A stretch of DNA of 36,026 bases from Lachnospiraceae bacterium. GTDB lineage: Bacteria > Bacillota > Clostridia > Lachnospirales > Lachnospiraceae. Both the position numbers and the translations under genes were made by a program. The stretch lies in assembly GCA_017521195.1 (NCBI GenBank), contig JAFXGP010000096.1:1-36026 (forward strand), given 5' to 3'. Below the pieces are notes generated by a model. That model searched no databases. It saw only the letters and a program-made list of their open reading frames with translations, and was not told the DNA's origin. Below, piece by piece: positions 4,148-10,014 of the stretch (position 1 is the first letter of the stretch; each line of letters opens with the position of its first letter).

Positions 4148-4308
4148 TCTCCTTCTCTCTATTTACTCAATAATTACACATATTTCAATACACATGTATT
4201 CCCCTGAAATATGCAATTATTTATAGTTAATTATATCAAGCATAAGTCAAAGATACAATACGAAATACTTTCATATTCAAAACAAACCCTTCGTTTCTGC
4301 CTAACTTA

Positions 4309-5022
4309 TTATAGTCTGCTTTCCAAAAATTTCTTCAATTCCTCAAACCCTCCCTGCGAAATCTCTGAGGTATCTTTATCCATTTTATTAATCAAACAAT
4401 TCGTTAATAAGAATCTCTCCATTCCAAGTTTTTCTGCCGGAACCATATCTTCTTCCATATCATTTCCAACCATAATACATTCTTCCGGTTTTAAATTCAG
4501 CTTTTCCAACAATTCCTCGTAATATCTTGGATTAGGTTTACAAAAATGACAGTTTTCATAAGTTGTATATTCTGCAAAATCTGCCGGTTCAAGTCCTGCC
4601 CATCTCATACGATTTTCAGTAGCAGTATGCGGAAACAAAGGATTGGTTGCAAGTACGGGAATTTTACCTTTTTCCCTTACCAATGTTATGATTTCCTTTG
4701 CTTCTTTGTAAAAACCACAAACTTCTTGCACCCGATTAAAATCATCTTTATAAAATGCATCAATATAAGGTTTATCCTCTATAGATGTTTCACCATAAGC
4801 ATTTGTAAACACTTTCCAAAATGCTTCTTTATTAGTAACTTCACCGGTATTTACAGTCATTGCATTTACTCCACTCCAAAATACCTTTAACAACTTGTCC
4901 GGTTCATATCCCCTTGGTGCAAGATGCTTTGCCAGATATTTAAAGTATGTTTTTACAAATTCATCCTGATCCATTTTTAATAAAGTGCCATCTAAATCAA
5001 ACAATACTGCTTTAATACTCAT
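4309..5022 (-). CDS. HAD-superfamily hydrolase (phosphatase-like)
   Basis: A 237-residue cytosolic HAD hydrolase. Motif I is LFDLDGTLL (about 7-15) with the nucleophile and acid/base aspartates, motif II is VLATNP with threonine, motif III is the lysine in CKPNPRYYEE, and motif IV is VGNDMEEDMVPA. A helical cap (about 18-100) is inserted after motif I, as in subclass I. The substrate cannot be inferred. The gene is 22 bases downstream of the LysR gene on the same strand, so the two may share a transcript. The last residues (FEELKKFLESRL) form an ordinary C-terminal helix, so the gene looks intact. Confidence 0.88.
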   Translation of the reverse strand: MSIKAVLFDLDGTLLKMDQDEFVKTYFKYLAKHLAPRGYEPDKLLKVFWSGVNAMTVNTGEVTNKEAFWKVFTNAYGETSIEDKPYIDAFYKDDFNRVQEVCGFYKEAKEIITLVREKGKIPVLATNPLFPHTATENRMRWAGLEPADFAEYTTYENCHFCKPNPRYYEELLEKLNLKPEECIMVGNDMEEDMVPAEKLGMERFLLTNCLINKMDKDTSEISQGGFEELKKFLESRL

Positions 5023-5043
5023 TTCTTTCTCCTGCTTCTTTTT

Positions 5044-5925
5044 TCATTTATTATAATATAACATCTTTTCTATCCATTCACCATACTGCATTCCATAAAC
5101 ACTATCCTTTTTCCATATGGCATTAAATTCATGAGAAATCTGAAATCCCGGAATATCTATTACTTTCATCTTTTTATTTTGAAGTTCTTCCTCAACTACA
5201 GTTTTATACAGAACACTGATTCCCAATCCTTCCAACAACATTTTTTTAATAATATGAGGACTCGTAAATTCACTGACACTGATAAAATTTTCAAAAGAAT
5301 AATTGTATTCATGCAGATAATTTCCAAAAATTTCGCGAGTTCCGGAACCATTTTCCCTGCATAACATGGGGTGTTTAAATAAGTCTTTTAACTCTTTAAT
5401 ATCATTACTGTCATACCCTACCGAACATGCAATGCACATTTCTTCCTTTTTTATCAACCTATATGCATACTGATTTTTTTCAAAGTAACCTTCACAGAGA
5501 ATAAAATCTACTTCGCCATTATCCAATTTCAAAAGTAAATCTCTGGTGTCTGCTATGGTCACCGATACATCTTGTTCGGGATTATTACGCATAAAAAGAG
5601 ATAGTTTTTCCGGAAGATAAAATTCTCCAATGGATAACGTTGCTCCCAATCGGATTCTTTTTCTTTTTCTTATATTCTGTACAGCCTCCTGCAAATTCTT
5701 AACATCATGTGAAATGGTTTCTAAATACTTTTTTAAATACTTTCCCTGTTCTGTTAATTCCAACTTTTTGTTTTTATAAGAAAAAAGTTTTGTTCCATAA
5801 AAATCTTCTAATCCTCGTATATGTTGTGATACCGCAGGCTGTGTCATATTCAGGTTTCCCGCCGTCTTTGTATAATTCATTGTTCTGCAAACATCTAAAA
5901 AAGTGTCTACTCTTGTGTCTATCAT
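5044..5925 (-). CDS. LysR-type transcriptional regulator, divergent from yeiH
   Basis: 293 residues. The N-terminal winged helix-turn-helix (about 1-60) has the classic TAGNLNMTQPAVSQHIRGLE recognition region. A linker helix follows (to about 90), then the two-lobed periplasmic-binding-like effector domain starting at RIRLGATLSIGEFYLP. The start ATG at 5925 is preceded by GGAAGAG. LysR regulators of the YeiE/CysL group are often divergent from YeiH-family transporters, and the gene order here is the same. The likely role is control of yeiH, and of itself, in response to a sulfur-related or other small ligand; the ligand is not visible. A dyad suited to a LysR dimer lies in the shared 225-base intergenic region. 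Confidence 0.92.
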   Translation of the reverse strand: MIDTRVDTFLDVCRTMNYTKTAGNLNMTQPAVSQHIRGLEDFYGTKLFSYKNKKLELTEQGKYLKKYLETISHDVKNLQEAVQNIRKRKRIRLGATLSIGEFYLPEKLSLFMRNNPEQDVSVTIADTRDLLLKLDNGEVDFILCEGYFEKNQYAYRLIKKEEMCIACSVGYDSNDIKELKDLFKHPMLCRENGSGTREIFGNYLHEYNYSFENFISVSEFTSPHIIKKMLLEGLGISVLYKTVVEEELQNKKMKVIDIPGFQISHEFNAIWKKDSVYGMQYGEWIEKMLYYNK

Positions 5926-6150: not shown

Positions 6151-7209
6151 ATGTGGAGGTTTATAGAAACAAAAATGAAGACAATAATAAACAATACTAA
6201 AAACATTATCCCGGGTCTTGCTATTGCACTACTCATTGCTGCTATTTCCAAATGGTTGGAATCCTTACTTCCGATTCATCTCATCGGAGCATCCGTAATC
6301 GCCTTATTTATAGGTATGTTCATCAATCAAATTAAGAAGCCGGGAAAAGTTATGACCGTTGGTCTAAAATTCACCTCTAAGAAAATCTTAAAATTTGCTA
6401 TTATTTTATTAGGAGCTTCTTTAAGTATCGGCACCATTCTGGAAGTAGGAAAAATGTCATTGACAGTAATGGTCTTTACTTTATTAACCTGCTTTGGCGG
6501 TGGATATTTTGTTGGAAAAGCTTTAAAACTGGATTGGAAATTGTCAAATTTGATTTCTGCCGGAACCGGAATCTGTGGCGGTTCCGCCATTGCAGCCATT
6601 GCTCCTGTCATTGATGCCGATGATACGGATATTGCCTATGCCATGTCTGCAACCTTTTTATTTGATATGGTTATGATTCTTGCCTTTCCGTTAATGGGAC
6701 AAGCTTTGGGATTAAGCGATATGGCTTATGGTTTATGGGCCGGTACTGCTGTAAATGACACTTCCAGCGTGGTAGCTGCGGGATATGCTTACAGTGAGGC
6801 TGCCGGTGATTTTGCTACCATGGTAAAACTGACAAGAACACTTGCTATCATTCCAACTGTAATTATTTTTTCCTTAATTAACGGCCACCTAAAAACAAAG
6901 GCTCAGAACAAGGAAGGAAACTCCAACGCAAAAAGAGTAAAAATCGCAGGATTATTACCATGGTTTATTGTTGCCTTTCTTATTATGGCAGTCATTAACA
7001 GTCTGGGCTTTATCCCTACAGCCGTTTCTGCTTCTTTAAAATCTATTAGTAAATTCCTTATGGTAGCGGCTCTTGCAGCCATCGGCTTGAATACCGATTT
7101 TCGTGAAATGAAAAAGTCCGGTATTAATCCTATGATTCATGGTTTTATCATTTCTGCCTTGGTTGTAATTGTCGCCATTATGGTAGAATATTTTATCGGA
7201 TTAGTCTAA
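6151..7209 (+). CDS. yeiH: YeiH-family putative sulfate exporter / transporter
   Basis: A 352-residue integral membrane protein with about ten hydrophobic segments. Family features include GASVIALFIGMFIN near the N-terminus, LLGASLSIGTI, the glycine-rich GTGICGGSAIAAIAPV (about 145-160), and GLWAGTAVNDTSSVVAAGYAYS (about 195-216). All match the UPF0324/YeiH family, annotated as putative sulfate exporters without firm biochemical proof. The start at 6151 is favoured because AGGA (6139-6142) sits 8 bases upstream. A second ATG at 6175 is preceded by GGAGG but at a poor 16-base distance. Expression is probably controlled by the divergent LysR protein. The gene ends at a strong bidirectional hairpin. 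Confidence 0.92.
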   Translation: MWRFIETKMKTIINNTKNIIPGLAIALLIAAISKWLESLLPIHLIGASVIALFIGMFINQIKKPGKVMTVGLKFTSKKILKFAIILLGASLSIGTILEVGKMSLTVMVFTLLTCFGGGYFVGKALKLDWKLSNLISAGTGICGGSAIAAIAPVIDADDTDIAYAMSATFLFDMVMILAFPLMGQALGLSDMAYGLWAGTAVNDTSSVVAAGYAYSEAAGDFATMVKLTRTLAIIPTVIIFSLINGHLKTKAQNKEGNSNAKRVKIAGLLPWFIVAFLIMAVINSLGFIPTAVSASLKSISKFLMVAALAAIGLNTDFREMKKSGINPMIHGFIISALVVIVAIMVEYFIGLV

Positions 7210-7219
7210 TATACAGACA

Positions 7220-7259
7220 AAAACTCGTAGCCGGTTTTTAATTACCTGCTACGAGTTTT
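7220..7259. terminator. Bidirectional terminator between yeiH and the ATPase-nuclease unit
   Basis: Arms 7220-7234 and 7245-7259 pair over 12 perfect outer bases (AAAACTCGTAGC with its complement) plus an inner GG/CC, and the outer A/T ends supply a U tract on either strand. It lies 10 bases past the yeiH stop and 22 bases past the stop of the convergent gene. Confidence 0.85.
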
Positions 7260-7281
7260 AAACATTTATCTTAAATATAAT

Positions 7282-7857
7282 CTATTTAATTATTCCTTCC
7301 TCTTTCTCTCTTGCAAGAATAAAATGCTTTTCAAATAAGCTTTGGGTATAAGTATGTGTTTCATTAAATAAATATCCTTCTAACTTATCTACCTCAAAAA
7401 GCTTTTCTTCTTCTGCTGCTAATTCCATAAAATATCCATATGTCTGTTCTCTGGATAATGATTTCTGAATTTTCTCATGCTTTCCTTCATTATATACCAA
7501 AATATAATTTATATTTTTTCGAACAAATTCATAATCTGGTATTATTCCCCATTCAACAAGCATAATTATACTGTCATATATTTTTCTGACTACTTCATCT
7601 TTATAAACATTTCCATTTTTAAATTCGATAAAATGCCATATCCCTTTAATATCAATGTACAATGCATCATTTGATTTTGGAACTCCTCTCCAGCCCTTCC
7701 CTCTAGCAAATTCATTAGGTATTTTATCAAAATCTACTACTTTAATAGAGCTTTCACACATCGGCTCTTTATTGGTTGTATCCATAGAGGCTTTCTTCAA
7801 TGTACAAATATACTTTTTTAAAACTTCAGGCAGGGAACAAACTACTTCTTCCGTCAT
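7282..7857 (-). CDS. Unknown protein with PD-(D/E)XK-like nuclease signature, partner of the ATPase
   Basis: 191 residues, no signal peptide or membrane segment. The centre reads SNDALYID (62-69) then WHFIEFKNG (74-82). D64, E78 and K80 fit the D-Xn-ExK core of PD-(D/E)XK nucleases: an acidic residue on one strand, then a strand ending in E-F-K. A later lysine-rich helix (KDEVVRKIYDSIIML, 86-100) is suitable for DNA contact. The gene begins 10 bases after the stop of the AAA ATPase gene and must be co-transcribed with it. Both are much more A+T-rich than neighbours, suggesting transfer as a unit. By analogy with other ATPase-plus-nuclease pairs I infer the effector half of a defence system. 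The nuclease call rests on a short motif and may be wrong. Confidence 0.75.
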   Translation of the reverse strand: MTEEVVCSLPEVLKKYICTLKKASMDTTNKEPMCESSIKVVDFDKIPNEFARGKGWRGVPKSNDALYIDIKGIWHFIEFKNGNVYKDEVVRKIYDSIIMLVEWGIIPDYEFVRKNINYILVYNEGKHEKIQKSLSREQTYGYFMELAAEEEKLFEVDKLEGYLFNETHTYTQSLFEKHFILAREKEEGIIK

Positions 7858-7867
7858 ATCTAATCCT

Positions 7868-9187
7868 TTAATGATTGTTCAAATCATATCTTAATGTATT
7901 TAATATCTGAATAGGCGATGCCATCTTTTTATATATACTCTCTATATTATCTGTTACACATTCCATTTTAACAATATTATTAACATCAGAGGACATATAA
8001 TAATTCACCTTACTATCCGTATTATATTTACAAGAAAATAAATTTATTGCATCTACGAAATACGGACTATGAGTAGTTACAACTACTGATAAATCAAAAT
8101 GCTTTTGCAACAATACAATCAATTCTGCATAAGCAATTTGCCATTGTGGATGAAGATGTATTTCCGGCTCATCTAAAATTACTACGTCCTTATCTTTCAA
8201 ACATCCTTTTTCAAGTAACATTTTTAAGATAACAAAAGATTTCATTCCTGTAGAAAGATTGTGAAATGAAATTGGCTCACTAAATCCGGTGCTTTTTAAA
8301 TAAAATTCATCATTGCTTTGGTTAATAATAATTTCTCCATCTACTACATTCTGAAGTGTTTCGTATATATCGCTTAACTTTTCCTTACTACGTACTGACT
8401 CTATGACTCCATCCATCAAATTTTCTTTAGGCGTATCTGTTAGTAAATTTTTAAGAAATTCATTCATCGGATTCAAAAAATTATATTCTGATAATTCATC
8501 TACAATAAACGGATTATCAATATAAATAGCTTTATGCATGATATTTATTTCATCCACAATTTCTTTACATCCTTTTGTATCCCAAATAAAAGAATTCCGT
8601 TTCCCTTTTATTTCCAAATCAATTATTGTTTCATTATCGACGTTACTATTTAATGGTTTTACTTGTGTATAAAAAACATTATTAAAATATCTGGTTAAAA
8701 TTTCTGAAACAATCTTATCTTCCGGCATAGATAATATTTCACATATATTTTGTACAAGTTCATCCATCATCTTTTCTGAATCTTCAACATTCATCATTCG
8801 AACAAAAGATACTATTTCTTCAACTTCCGTTTCTAAAATAGAATGAATGTCTTCTTCCATTAAACTACTGTCATTATTATCTATATATTTTTTTAATTGC
8901 TGCCTTATTTTTGTTGATACATTCAAAATATTTTTAGCTATAATGCTTCTTGATAGTTCACTAACATTTACATAATTTTGCAAAATCATCCTGTTTGAAA
9001 CTTCCACTTCTTTCAAACGTTCTTTTAAAATTTTATCTTCAATGTTACATAATGAATTAAATATTGAGAACAATATTTTTCCAATTGTGCTTTTCCCTGT
9101 ATTATTTTCTCCAGCTATTACTGTTATACCATCAATGATAATATCTGCTTTTTCTATTTTTGCAAAATTATTAATATTTTGTCTCAT
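7868..9187 (-). CDS. OLD/AAA-type ABC ATPase (predicted sensor of a two-gene system)
   Basis: 439 residues. The N-terminal half-ATPase has Walker A GENNTGKST (26-34). A long, charged, largely helical insertion (about 50-290) replaces the coiled-coil arm of SMC/RecF relatives. The C-terminal half has the signature LSTGMKS (311-317), Walker B DVVILDEPEIHLHP (334-347) and the switch histidine in TTHSPYF (371-377). The HLHP after Walker B is characteristic of the AAA15/AAA21/OLD group found in many phage-defence systems. No TOPRIM domain follows, so it is not a complete OLD nuclease; catalysis is probably supplied by the downstream gene. GAAGGGG sits 7 bases before the ATG at 9187. A promoter is visible upstream. 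Strong A+T bias suggests horizontal gain. Confidence 0.9.
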   Translation of the reverse strand: MRQNINNFAKIEKADIIIDGITVIAGENNTGKSTIGKILFSIFNSLCNIEDKILKERLKEVEVSNRMILQNYVNVSELSRSIIAKNILNVSTKIRQQLKKYIDNNDSSLMEEDIHSILETEVEEIVSFVRMMNVEDSEKMMDELVQNICEILSMPEDKIVSEILTRYFNNVFYTQVKPLNSNVDNETIIDLEIKGKRNSFIWDTKGCKEIVDEINIMHKAIYIDNPFIVDELSEYNFLNPMNEFLKNLLTDTPKENLMDGVIESVRSKEKLSDIYETLQNVVDGEIIINQSNDEFYLKSTGFSEPISFHNLSTGMKSFVILKMLLEKGCLKDKDVVILDEPEIHLHPQWQIAYAELIVLLQKHFDLSVVVTTHSPYFVDAINLFSCKYNTDSKVNYYMSSDVNNIVKMECVTDNIESIYKKMASPIQILNTLRYDLNNH

Positions 9188-9230
9188 AGACTACCCCTTC
9201 TATAACAAATTATAAAATGAAATTAATATT

Positions 9231-9258
9231 ATTATATCTAATTCTATTTGTAAATCAA
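9231..9258 (-). promoter_or_regulatory. Promoter of the ATPase-nuclease operon
   Basis: On the minus strand TTGATT (9253-9258) is followed after 16 bases by a perfect TATAAT (9231-9236), about 44 bases before the ATPase start. It is the only good housekeeping-type promoter in the 130-base gap. The surroundings are very A+T-rich, which lowers certainty. Confidence 0.55.
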
Positions 9259-9318
9259 CACAAAATTTTCATTGTCATCTACAAAAGTCTTAACCTATCA
9301 CCTTCGTTTTTTTATATA

Positions 9319-10014
9319 TCATTTAAAATTAGTTACGATTTCAACAATCTTCTGCAAATCATCGATTTCATAATCAATTCTTAAATCCGTTTCATTTTTC
9401 ATTCTTTTAGGATTATACCAACAGCAAACAATTCCTGCATTATTCCCACCTCGGATATCACTGGTTAAAGAATCTCCTACAATCATGATTTCCTCTTTGT
9501 TATAATATCCTATCTGTTTCCGGACATGCTCAAAAAATTCTACTCCGGGTTTCTCACACCCTACGACTTCAGAAATAAAAATTCCGTCAAAAATATCTAT
9601 CAGACCGGATTTTTCTAACTTTCTGTCTTGCGCTGCTTTTGTTCCATTGGTAACGGCATATTGTTTTATGCGTCCTCTCAGACTCTTCATTAATTCATAG
9701 CTGTTATCGCAAAAACATACAGTTTCTCCCAGCCATTTCTGATACTGCTCATTAAATTCTTTTGCACAATCGGTCTTAATATTTTCTGCCTCAAAAAAAT
9801 CTACAAAACGATTTATCAATACTTCCTGTTTTGTAATTTCACCACGTTCCAGTTTTTCCCAATATTTTCTATTAATGATGGAATATCTTTCAATCATTTC
9901 ATCGGTACATTCCCCTAAGTCAAAAATTTCAAAACATTTTTTAATGGCTGCGTATTCTGCCTTTTTAAAATCTAATAAGGTACCGTCTACATCCCATAAG
10001 ATTACTTTTATCAT
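9319..10014 (-). CDS. HAD-family nucleotidase, YjjG/YfnB type
   Basis: A 231-residue cytosolic HAD hydrolase. Motif I is LWDVDGTLLDF (about 6-16), the cap contains the helical run RYSIINRKYWEKLERGEI, motif II is AVTNGT, motif III is the lysine in GCEKPGVEFFEHV, and motif IV is VGDSLTSDIRGGNNAG. This layout, with FISEVVGCEKPG and the terminal DSLTSDIRGG, matches the YjjG group, which remove phosphate from non-canonical pyrimidine nucleotides. Substrate assignment is by family only. The start ATG at 10014 overlaps the stop of the lipoprotein gene (ATGA), so the two are translationally coupled. Confidence 0.87.
   Translation of the reverse strand: MIKVILWDVDGTLLDFKKAEYAAIKKCFEIFDLGECTDEMIERYSIINRKYWEKLERGEITKQEVLINRFVDFFEAENIKTDCAKEFNEQYQKWLGETVCFCDNSYELMKSLRGRIKQYAVTNGTKAAQDRKLEKSGLIDIFDGIFISEVVGCEKPGVEFFEHVRKQIGYYNKEEIMIVGDSLTSDIRGGNNAGIVCCWYNPKRMKNETDLRIDYEIDDLQKIVEIVTNFK

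Follow-up and report, generated by a model that had tools for sequence, protein, structure and literature searches.

An OLD-type ATPase and a predicted PD-(D/E)XK nuclease encoded side by side in a Lachnospiraceae bacterium: a candidate anti-phage pair of the WonAB kind

Two adjacent genes in a contig of a Lachnospiraceae bacterium raise the question of whether an ATPase and a small nuclease-like protein form an anti-phage system and, if so, whether the system is of a kind not described before. The window, that is, the whole stretch of DNA analysed, covers 36,026 nucleotides (assembly GCA_017521195.1, contig JAFXGP010000096.1). An earlier note made from its letters proposed an undescribed defence system with a different class of effector. 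The pair resembles two-gene anti-phage systems described in recent work and seems to be a further relative of theirs, not a new class. By analogy with one of them, WonAB, it probably encodes a defence module in which the ATPase gates the nuclease.

Gene pair and insertion site

The ATPase gene is followed after 10 bases by the nuclease gene (Table 1). The two genes and the gap of the earlier note are confirmed, with exact coordinates, strands and lengths, and the A+T-richness that it remarked on is confirmed by measurement. Among 37 mechanically chosen ORFs of the window (two cut by its ends were excluded) the ATPase gene has the lowest G+C content (26.7%) and the nuclease gene the third lowest (29.9%); the remaining 35 ORFs average 36.3% (sd 2.6%). 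This low G+C fits a foreign origin.

Table 1. Features of the window at and around the gene pair.
Feature	Position	Strand	Remarks
ATPase gene, 439 aa	7868-9187	minus	first gene of pair; OLD/ABC-type; no TOPRIM domain found
predicted nuclease gene, 191 aa	7282-7857	minus	second gene of pair; PD-(D/E)XK-type; D64/E78/K80
inserted segment with pair, ~2.08 kb	7260..9337		flanked by YeiH-family (Cons_hypoth698) gene and HAD-hydrolase gene
bidirectional terminator-like hairpin	~7219-7259		z -5.1; downstream of pair; between convergent genes
promoter-like site TTGATT-16-TATAAT	9258-9231	minus	best upstream of ATPase; 10/12 consensus

The two genes that flank the pair, identified with Pfam, lie side by side in another genome of the same genus, G787 (locus L063), where the pair is absent. 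The G787 flanks are 86% and 85% identical to those of the window; the alignment ends at 7259 and restarts at 9338, about 11 bases replacing the intervening segment. The pair thus sits on an insertion, at whose boundaries the comparison of window and G787 resolved no target-site duplication. G787 alone has the YeiH-HAD arrangement among the five same-genus loci examined; the other four (L064-L067) have the HAD gene without this arrangement and are hence uninformative on the insertion site. The nuclease had no match in any of six other same-genus genomes (72-89% complete). The empty site, this absence and the low G+C argue together for a defence module.

The hairpin downstream of the pair is kept in the empty site of G787. 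It therefore belongs to the insertion site itself, the pair having landed next to an existing terminator. The bidirectional terminator that the earlier note saw as a boundary of the pair is real, even if absent from the list of a simple terminator scan, but it is not dedicated to these genes. The dedicated promoter of the same proposal holds in part: a promoter-like site is present upstream of the ATPase gene, but such sites are no commoner in the region 7150-9400 than expected by chance (16 observed vs 16.1 in shuffles).

The ATPase and the predicted nuclease

The ATPase carries all the motifs that had led to its assignment: a Walker A motif (GENNTGKST, residues 26-34), an ABC signature (LSTGMKS, residues 311-317), a Walker B motif continued by HLHP (DEPEIHLHP, residues 339-347, in the context ILDEPEIHLHP) and an H-loop (THSPYF) with the switch histidine H373. 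It matches Pfam families AAA_21 (3.3e-19) and AAA_15 (2.1e-16). Foldseek places its AlphaFold2 model (pLDDT 86.2) nearest to retron I-A complex chains (E 4.1e-9), with Rad50, SMC heads and PtuA next. A TOPRIM or DUF4435 nuclease domain, a feature of OLD, Gabija and PARIS, gave no Pfam match at E <= 10 in either window protein, and the small protein has no Pfam or PADLOC match to an HNH domain of the Septu PtuB-like type.

The residues D64, E78 and K80 of the small protein, picked out in the earlier note, are the same in all 21 rows of an alignment of its family (A3, window row counted). Identity falls to 19% in this alignment and no more than six columns are fully conserved (D64, E78, F79, K80, I119 and F175), so the conservation of the three residues goes beyond a chance motif. 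The PD-(D/E)XK core is built as D-Xn-(D/E)XK in a core strand hairpin with flanking helices. The AlphaFold2 model of the small protein (pLDDT 87.9, pTM 0.83) has strands at 65-68, 74-80 and 116-122 and helices at 43-54 and 86-102; D64 immediately precedes strand 65-68, and E78 and K80 lie within strand 74-80. This strand and helix order is the one expected of a PD-(D/E)XK core and, with the invariance of the three residues, it argues for the defence module.

A Foldseek search of this model against the PDB yielded 246 matches at E <= 10, with a best probability of 0.57 and none significant at E <= 0.001, which weighs against the defence module. We take 47 of the best 50 of these 246 matches to be PD-(D/E)XK nucleases or proteins containing one, a classification made without sight of the aligned part of long chains; an OPRTase, EscJ and an ORC chain make up the remainder. 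This predominance speaks for the module, none of the matches being significant. Among the matches listed are EndoMS, XPF, Mus81, BamHI and LmuA, as well as RNA-cutting viral cap-snatching endonucleases. A non-nuclease fold, which the earlier note named as grounds for abandoning its proposal, did not come out on top, but neither did any fold match reach significance. A lack of conserved D, E and K in homologues, which the note would likewise have taken as refuting, was not observed, all three being conserved. Pfam, NCBIfam and PADLOC returned no significant match to the window nuclease, a sequence search of solved structures found no relative, and one PHROG of unknown function matched at 7.6e-5. 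Judged from its sequence pattern and modelled topology, the structural match not being significant, it is very probable that the 191-residue product belongs to the PD-(D/E)XK nucleases. Pfam, PADLOC, the alignment and both models agree with the initial description of an OLD/AAA15-type ATPase with a PD-(D/E)XK-like partner that lacks TOPRIM, UvrD and HNH.

Distribution and neighbourhoods of the pair

Relatives of the nuclease were found at 25 loci beyond the window. A match is present in 13 of 392 genomes at the level of the order (14 places) and in 9 of 398 at the level of the phylum (9 places), the window's genome being counted in both scans; three loci lie in genome contigs and one in a record of a phage collection. 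The latter (L022, MT835532.1, positions 6599-8525) holds the whole pair in an unannotated record from human faeces that is marked unverified. A scan of viral_contigs with the nuclease gave no relative, nor did a tblastn search of plasmids; profile comparison later revealed two plasmid relatives. These belong to pairs of Klebsiella (L036) and Acinetobacter (L038), whose nucleases match the window-family profile at 1.3e-9 and 6.8e-11, respectively, with D and ExK aligned, compared with 0.18 and 0.5 for two proteins of the window that are about as long but unrelated. The best PADLOC match of both their ATPases is HEC-02A. No two nucleases among 17 sequences compared (the window and 16 others) are more than 80% identical. 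A serine recombinase adjoins another copy (L025). The patchy presence, the copies in the phage-collection record and on plasmids, and the recombinase all argue for a defence module.

ATPase sequence lies directly upstream of the nuclease in 24 of the 25 non-window loci, and both ORFs are whole and adjacent in 20. All 23 complete pairs measured, among them the window pair and the two on plasmids, have their ORFs -89 to +21 bases apart (first start codon taken). This association and tight spacing favour a functional module for defence. A small two-gene cassette of overlapping or close ORFs with a patchy distribution would also suit a toxin-antitoxin-like addiction module, in which the nuclease would be toxic alone and restrained by the ATPase, defence being a side effect or absent. 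Such a role is unlikely. Against it stands WonAB, a precedent that may apply here, in which the toxicity of the nuclease required the ATPase and a simple antitoxin role was excluded (PMC12137116).

Incomplete copies also occur. In L026 the ATPase ORF is split in two and the nuclease is whole, L055 and L056 hold fragments of both genes, and for the nuclease fragment of L030 no ATPase was found. In L034 (genome G375, 4228-5860) the nuclease that follows a whole ATPase is represented by its C-terminal part only; the segment bearing D64, E78 and K80 was not found there, a pattern that would arise if the locus had lost its effector and kept its sensor.

Around 21 loci, 159 neighbour ORFs were compared. 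Sharing at more than 40% identity outside L050-L053 is limited to L003 and L023, whose common neighbour (64%) is presumably a manganese catalase-like protein, a name based on Pfam counts. As nearly no neighbours are shared between loci, the site of the pair is not fixed. Most of the neighbour genes that were identified at the other loci have housekeeping functions, which counts against the defence module; a defence-island context for the pair was rejected. The neighbourhood survey suggested in the earlier note therefore had a mixed outcome: defence islands did not appear, but neighbours vary outside one genus and the site is empty in G787, which is what a mobile accessory unit would show.

The exception is genus g197 (L050-L053), in which the pair occupies a fixed site, purH - pair - ylxM - ffh (genes named by Pfam in L051; L050, L052 and L053 share the same neighbours). 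This site, the housekeeping neighbours elsewhere and the resemblance of the ATPase model to Rad50 and SMC heads are the points in favour of a Rad50/SMC-like pair that would serve the chromosome in DNA repair or housekeeping and take no part in defence. The patchy presence of the pair, the variation of its neighbours among the other loci and the syntenic site without it in G787 make such a role highly improbable, and an ATPase-gated defence module is preferred.

PADLOC was run on 115 of the 159 neighbour ORFs (E <= 1e-20), the 44 left out including all those of L051 and L053. It returned 44 families, with one member each among the matches listed (25 of 44); the families listed include GajB, DRT, AbiLi, MzaA, PDC-S03 and PD-Lambda-1. 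When ten large neighbours were scanned singly, one protein matched, a DRT-like protein of L027 (3956-5731) hit by the RT_UG29/RTasDnaG-like models. Its gene stands beside rpoD, trmK and NIF3 and hence most likely codes for a normal DnaG primase; this match within a housekeeping operon is a further point against the defence module. Note that the RT_UG29/RTasDnaG-like models of PADLOC can match housekeeping genes. A TOPRIM-bearing neighbour in L033 proved to be gyrase B. As the tracing of PADLOC names to a locus covered the match in L027 and the scans covered the neighbourhoods of the pair itself, some true defence neighbours may exist.

Relation to known systems and proposed function

The closest description is that of WonAB, composed of an OLD-type ABC ATPase (WonA) and a PD-(D/E)xK nuclease (WonB) that are both required. 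In the text available from PMC12137116, a K71A change in WonB or a changed ATP site in WonA abolishes protection, infection is aborted, translation is halted with genomic DNA intact, and rRNA or tRNA is the suspected target. The need for both genes and for K71 of the nuclease lends weight to a defence module at the window. WonAB is related there to an operon named "OLD-ABC ATPase + Novel REase" and to PD-T4-4. As far as the available text goes (PMC12137116, PMC12409358), WonAB and the Novel REase operon share with the window pair the two-gene format, an OLD-type ABC ATPase, a PD-(D/E)xK nuclease and the lack of TOPRIM. WonA has the same set of Walker A, signature, Walker B and H-loop motifs, and both nucleases have a lysine assigned to catalysis, K71 in WonB and, by prediction, K80 in the window protein. 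The systems differ in the size of the nuclease (16.1 kDa for WonB, 191 residues in the window) and in the distance between ATPase motifs (266 residues from K34 to E300 in WonA, 308 from K32 to E340 in the window ATPase). WonAB homologues are described as mainly Gram-negative (PMC12137116, PMC12409358), unlike the loci found here, which belong mainly to the window's order and phylum, the groups most searched, and to two Gammaproteobacterial plasmids. The window nuclease may belong to the "Novel REase" family, to which, as to WonB, it is likened by description and not by sequence.

In PD-T4-4, too, the nuclease gene comes after the ATPase gene (L039; PMC9519451, PMC10952713), with AAA ATPase and PD(D/E)XK domains listed in Table 1 of PMC10952713 and nuclease residues named in a figure legend of PMC12137116. 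PD-T4-4_A is the best PADLOC model for the window ATPase, at 2.5e-24, compared with 1.1e-160 for L037 and 4.5e-233 for L039. The PD-T4-4 nuclease is of another family: PD-T4-4_B matched neither the window nuclease (E <= 10) nor any of 16 family members (E <= 1), and the hhalign comparison with the window-family profile gave E 0.48. Membership in PD-T4-4 through the nuclease was rejected on these grounds. The published pairs of an ATPase with a PD-(D/E)XK nuclease mean that this kind of system is already known, and the claims of an undescribed system and of a different effector class do not hold. No further pair of this composition was recognised among titles and abstracts in the literature.

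PADLOC also contains two candidate systems of similar build, HEC-02 and PDC-M47; a literature search on HEC-02 found no related paper. HEC-02 joins an ATPase to a small protein with a D...ExK-like motif (L068). The window ATPase matches HEC-02A at 1e-21, but the HEC-02A protein of L068 lacks HLHP (WDEPEANINP). Of 16 nuclease rows, 3 to 6 matched HEC-02B weakly (best 2.8e-5), the window protein not among them, and hhalign of the window family with two HEC-02B proteins gave probabilities of 9.0%, with alignment at motif level, and 0.1%. PDC-M47 pairs an ATPase with a protein bearing a D...ExM/ExK-like motif region (L037), and its PDC-M47B compares with the window family at 4.9% hhalign probability, at motif level only. 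The resemblance of the window nuclease to HEC-02B and PDC-M47B does not go beyond the motif.

PARIS, Septu, Gabija and retron I-A have OLD-type ATPases related to that of the window, but their partners (DUF4435, HNH or UvrD) were not found in the window pair; a TOPRIM, HNH or UvrD partner was rejected, as neither Pfam nor PADLOC gave such a match. Partners encoded downstream of similar plasmid and phage ATPases are PD-T4-4_B (L039, by PADLOC; L072, L073 and L077, by evident likeness to L039), PDC-M47B (L037, likewise by PADLOC) and, by annotation, DUF4435 (L075), HNH (L076) and PtuB (L079), those of L074 and L078 being left unclassified. The window-family profile, compared with 14 such partners (two HEC-02B included), matched only those of L036 and L038, and hhalign of the family with the L076 and L079 partners was not significant. 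In a tree of 34 ATPases, arbitrarily rooted and with several long branches, those paired with the window nuclease family group together with weak support (81/15 when both plasmid pairs are counted in). The ATPases of HEC-02 and those of PD-T4-4/PDC-M47 each form a separate group, at 100/100 in both cases. To the ATPase and PD-(D/E)XK kind of defence the pair adds a family for which Pfam and PADLOC have no model that fits well (16 nuclease rows scanned; the NCBIfam search covered the window nuclease). The association of related OLD-type ATPases with several partner families (more than one PD-(D/E)XK family, DUF4435, HNH) makes swapping between sensor and effector testable.

What is seen directly is that the two genes are paired on an accessory insertion, that the motifs of the ATPase are intact, that the nuclease residues do not vary and that the predicted fold resembles a nuclease. 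The mechanism proposed here is inferred wherever it goes further than sequence, gene order and predicted fold; the complex, abortive infection and, with less certainty, the RNA target are borrowed from WonAB. The OLD-type ABC ATPase would dimerise around ATP, hold the small nuclease in a complex and sense some consequence of phage infection. ATP-dependent activation would then allow the nuclease, through a metal site formed by D64, E78 and K80, to cut nucleic acid, and the infected cell would cease growth before phage production.

RNA (tRNA or rRNA) is a conceivable target on the model of WonAB, one that we favour only tentatively. Most structurally characterised PD-(D/E)XK enzymes cut DNA, and EndoMS, XPF, Mus81, BamHI and LmuA, already mentioned among the Foldseek matches listed, also speak for DNA. 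The same architecture may therefore cut DNA, of the phage or of the host genome, a reading held with similar reserve, whose odds overlap with those of the main one. It is in line with DUF4297-HerA, a two-component anti-phage complex of ATPase and nuclease that cleaves dsDNA and is likened to the window pair by description only, its ATPase being a HerA hexamer (available text of PMC11291478). The halted translation and intact genomic DNA of WonAB (PMC12137116) speak against DNA. So does, as a single case, L002, where an ORF for a KptA/Tpt1-family RNA 2'-phosphotransferase (Pfam 2.3e-48; 7598-8143, plus strand) starts 18 bases beyond the nuclease in the same orientation and hints at RNA damage as the target.

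The ATPases of genus g197 are degenerate, which together with the fixed site counts against the defence module. All four sampled whole pairs (L050-L053) have lost the serine of the ABC signature (APNG or SPNG) and the H-loop histidine (TCS), and HLHP is replaced by LSHP or LSHA; their nucleases keep D, E and K. A bolder reading, improbable as a whole, would see in the window nuclease a separate PD-(D/E)XK family, outside PD-T4-4_B, HEC-02B, PDC-M47B and WonB. Spread across the window's phylum and present also on Gammaproteobacterial plasmids and in a phage-like record, this family would halt translation by cutting RNA, and in L050-L053 it would be activated by ATP binding without normal hydrolysis. 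With its degenerate ATPase and intact nuclease residues, this subgroup offers a natural test of the need for hydrolysis.
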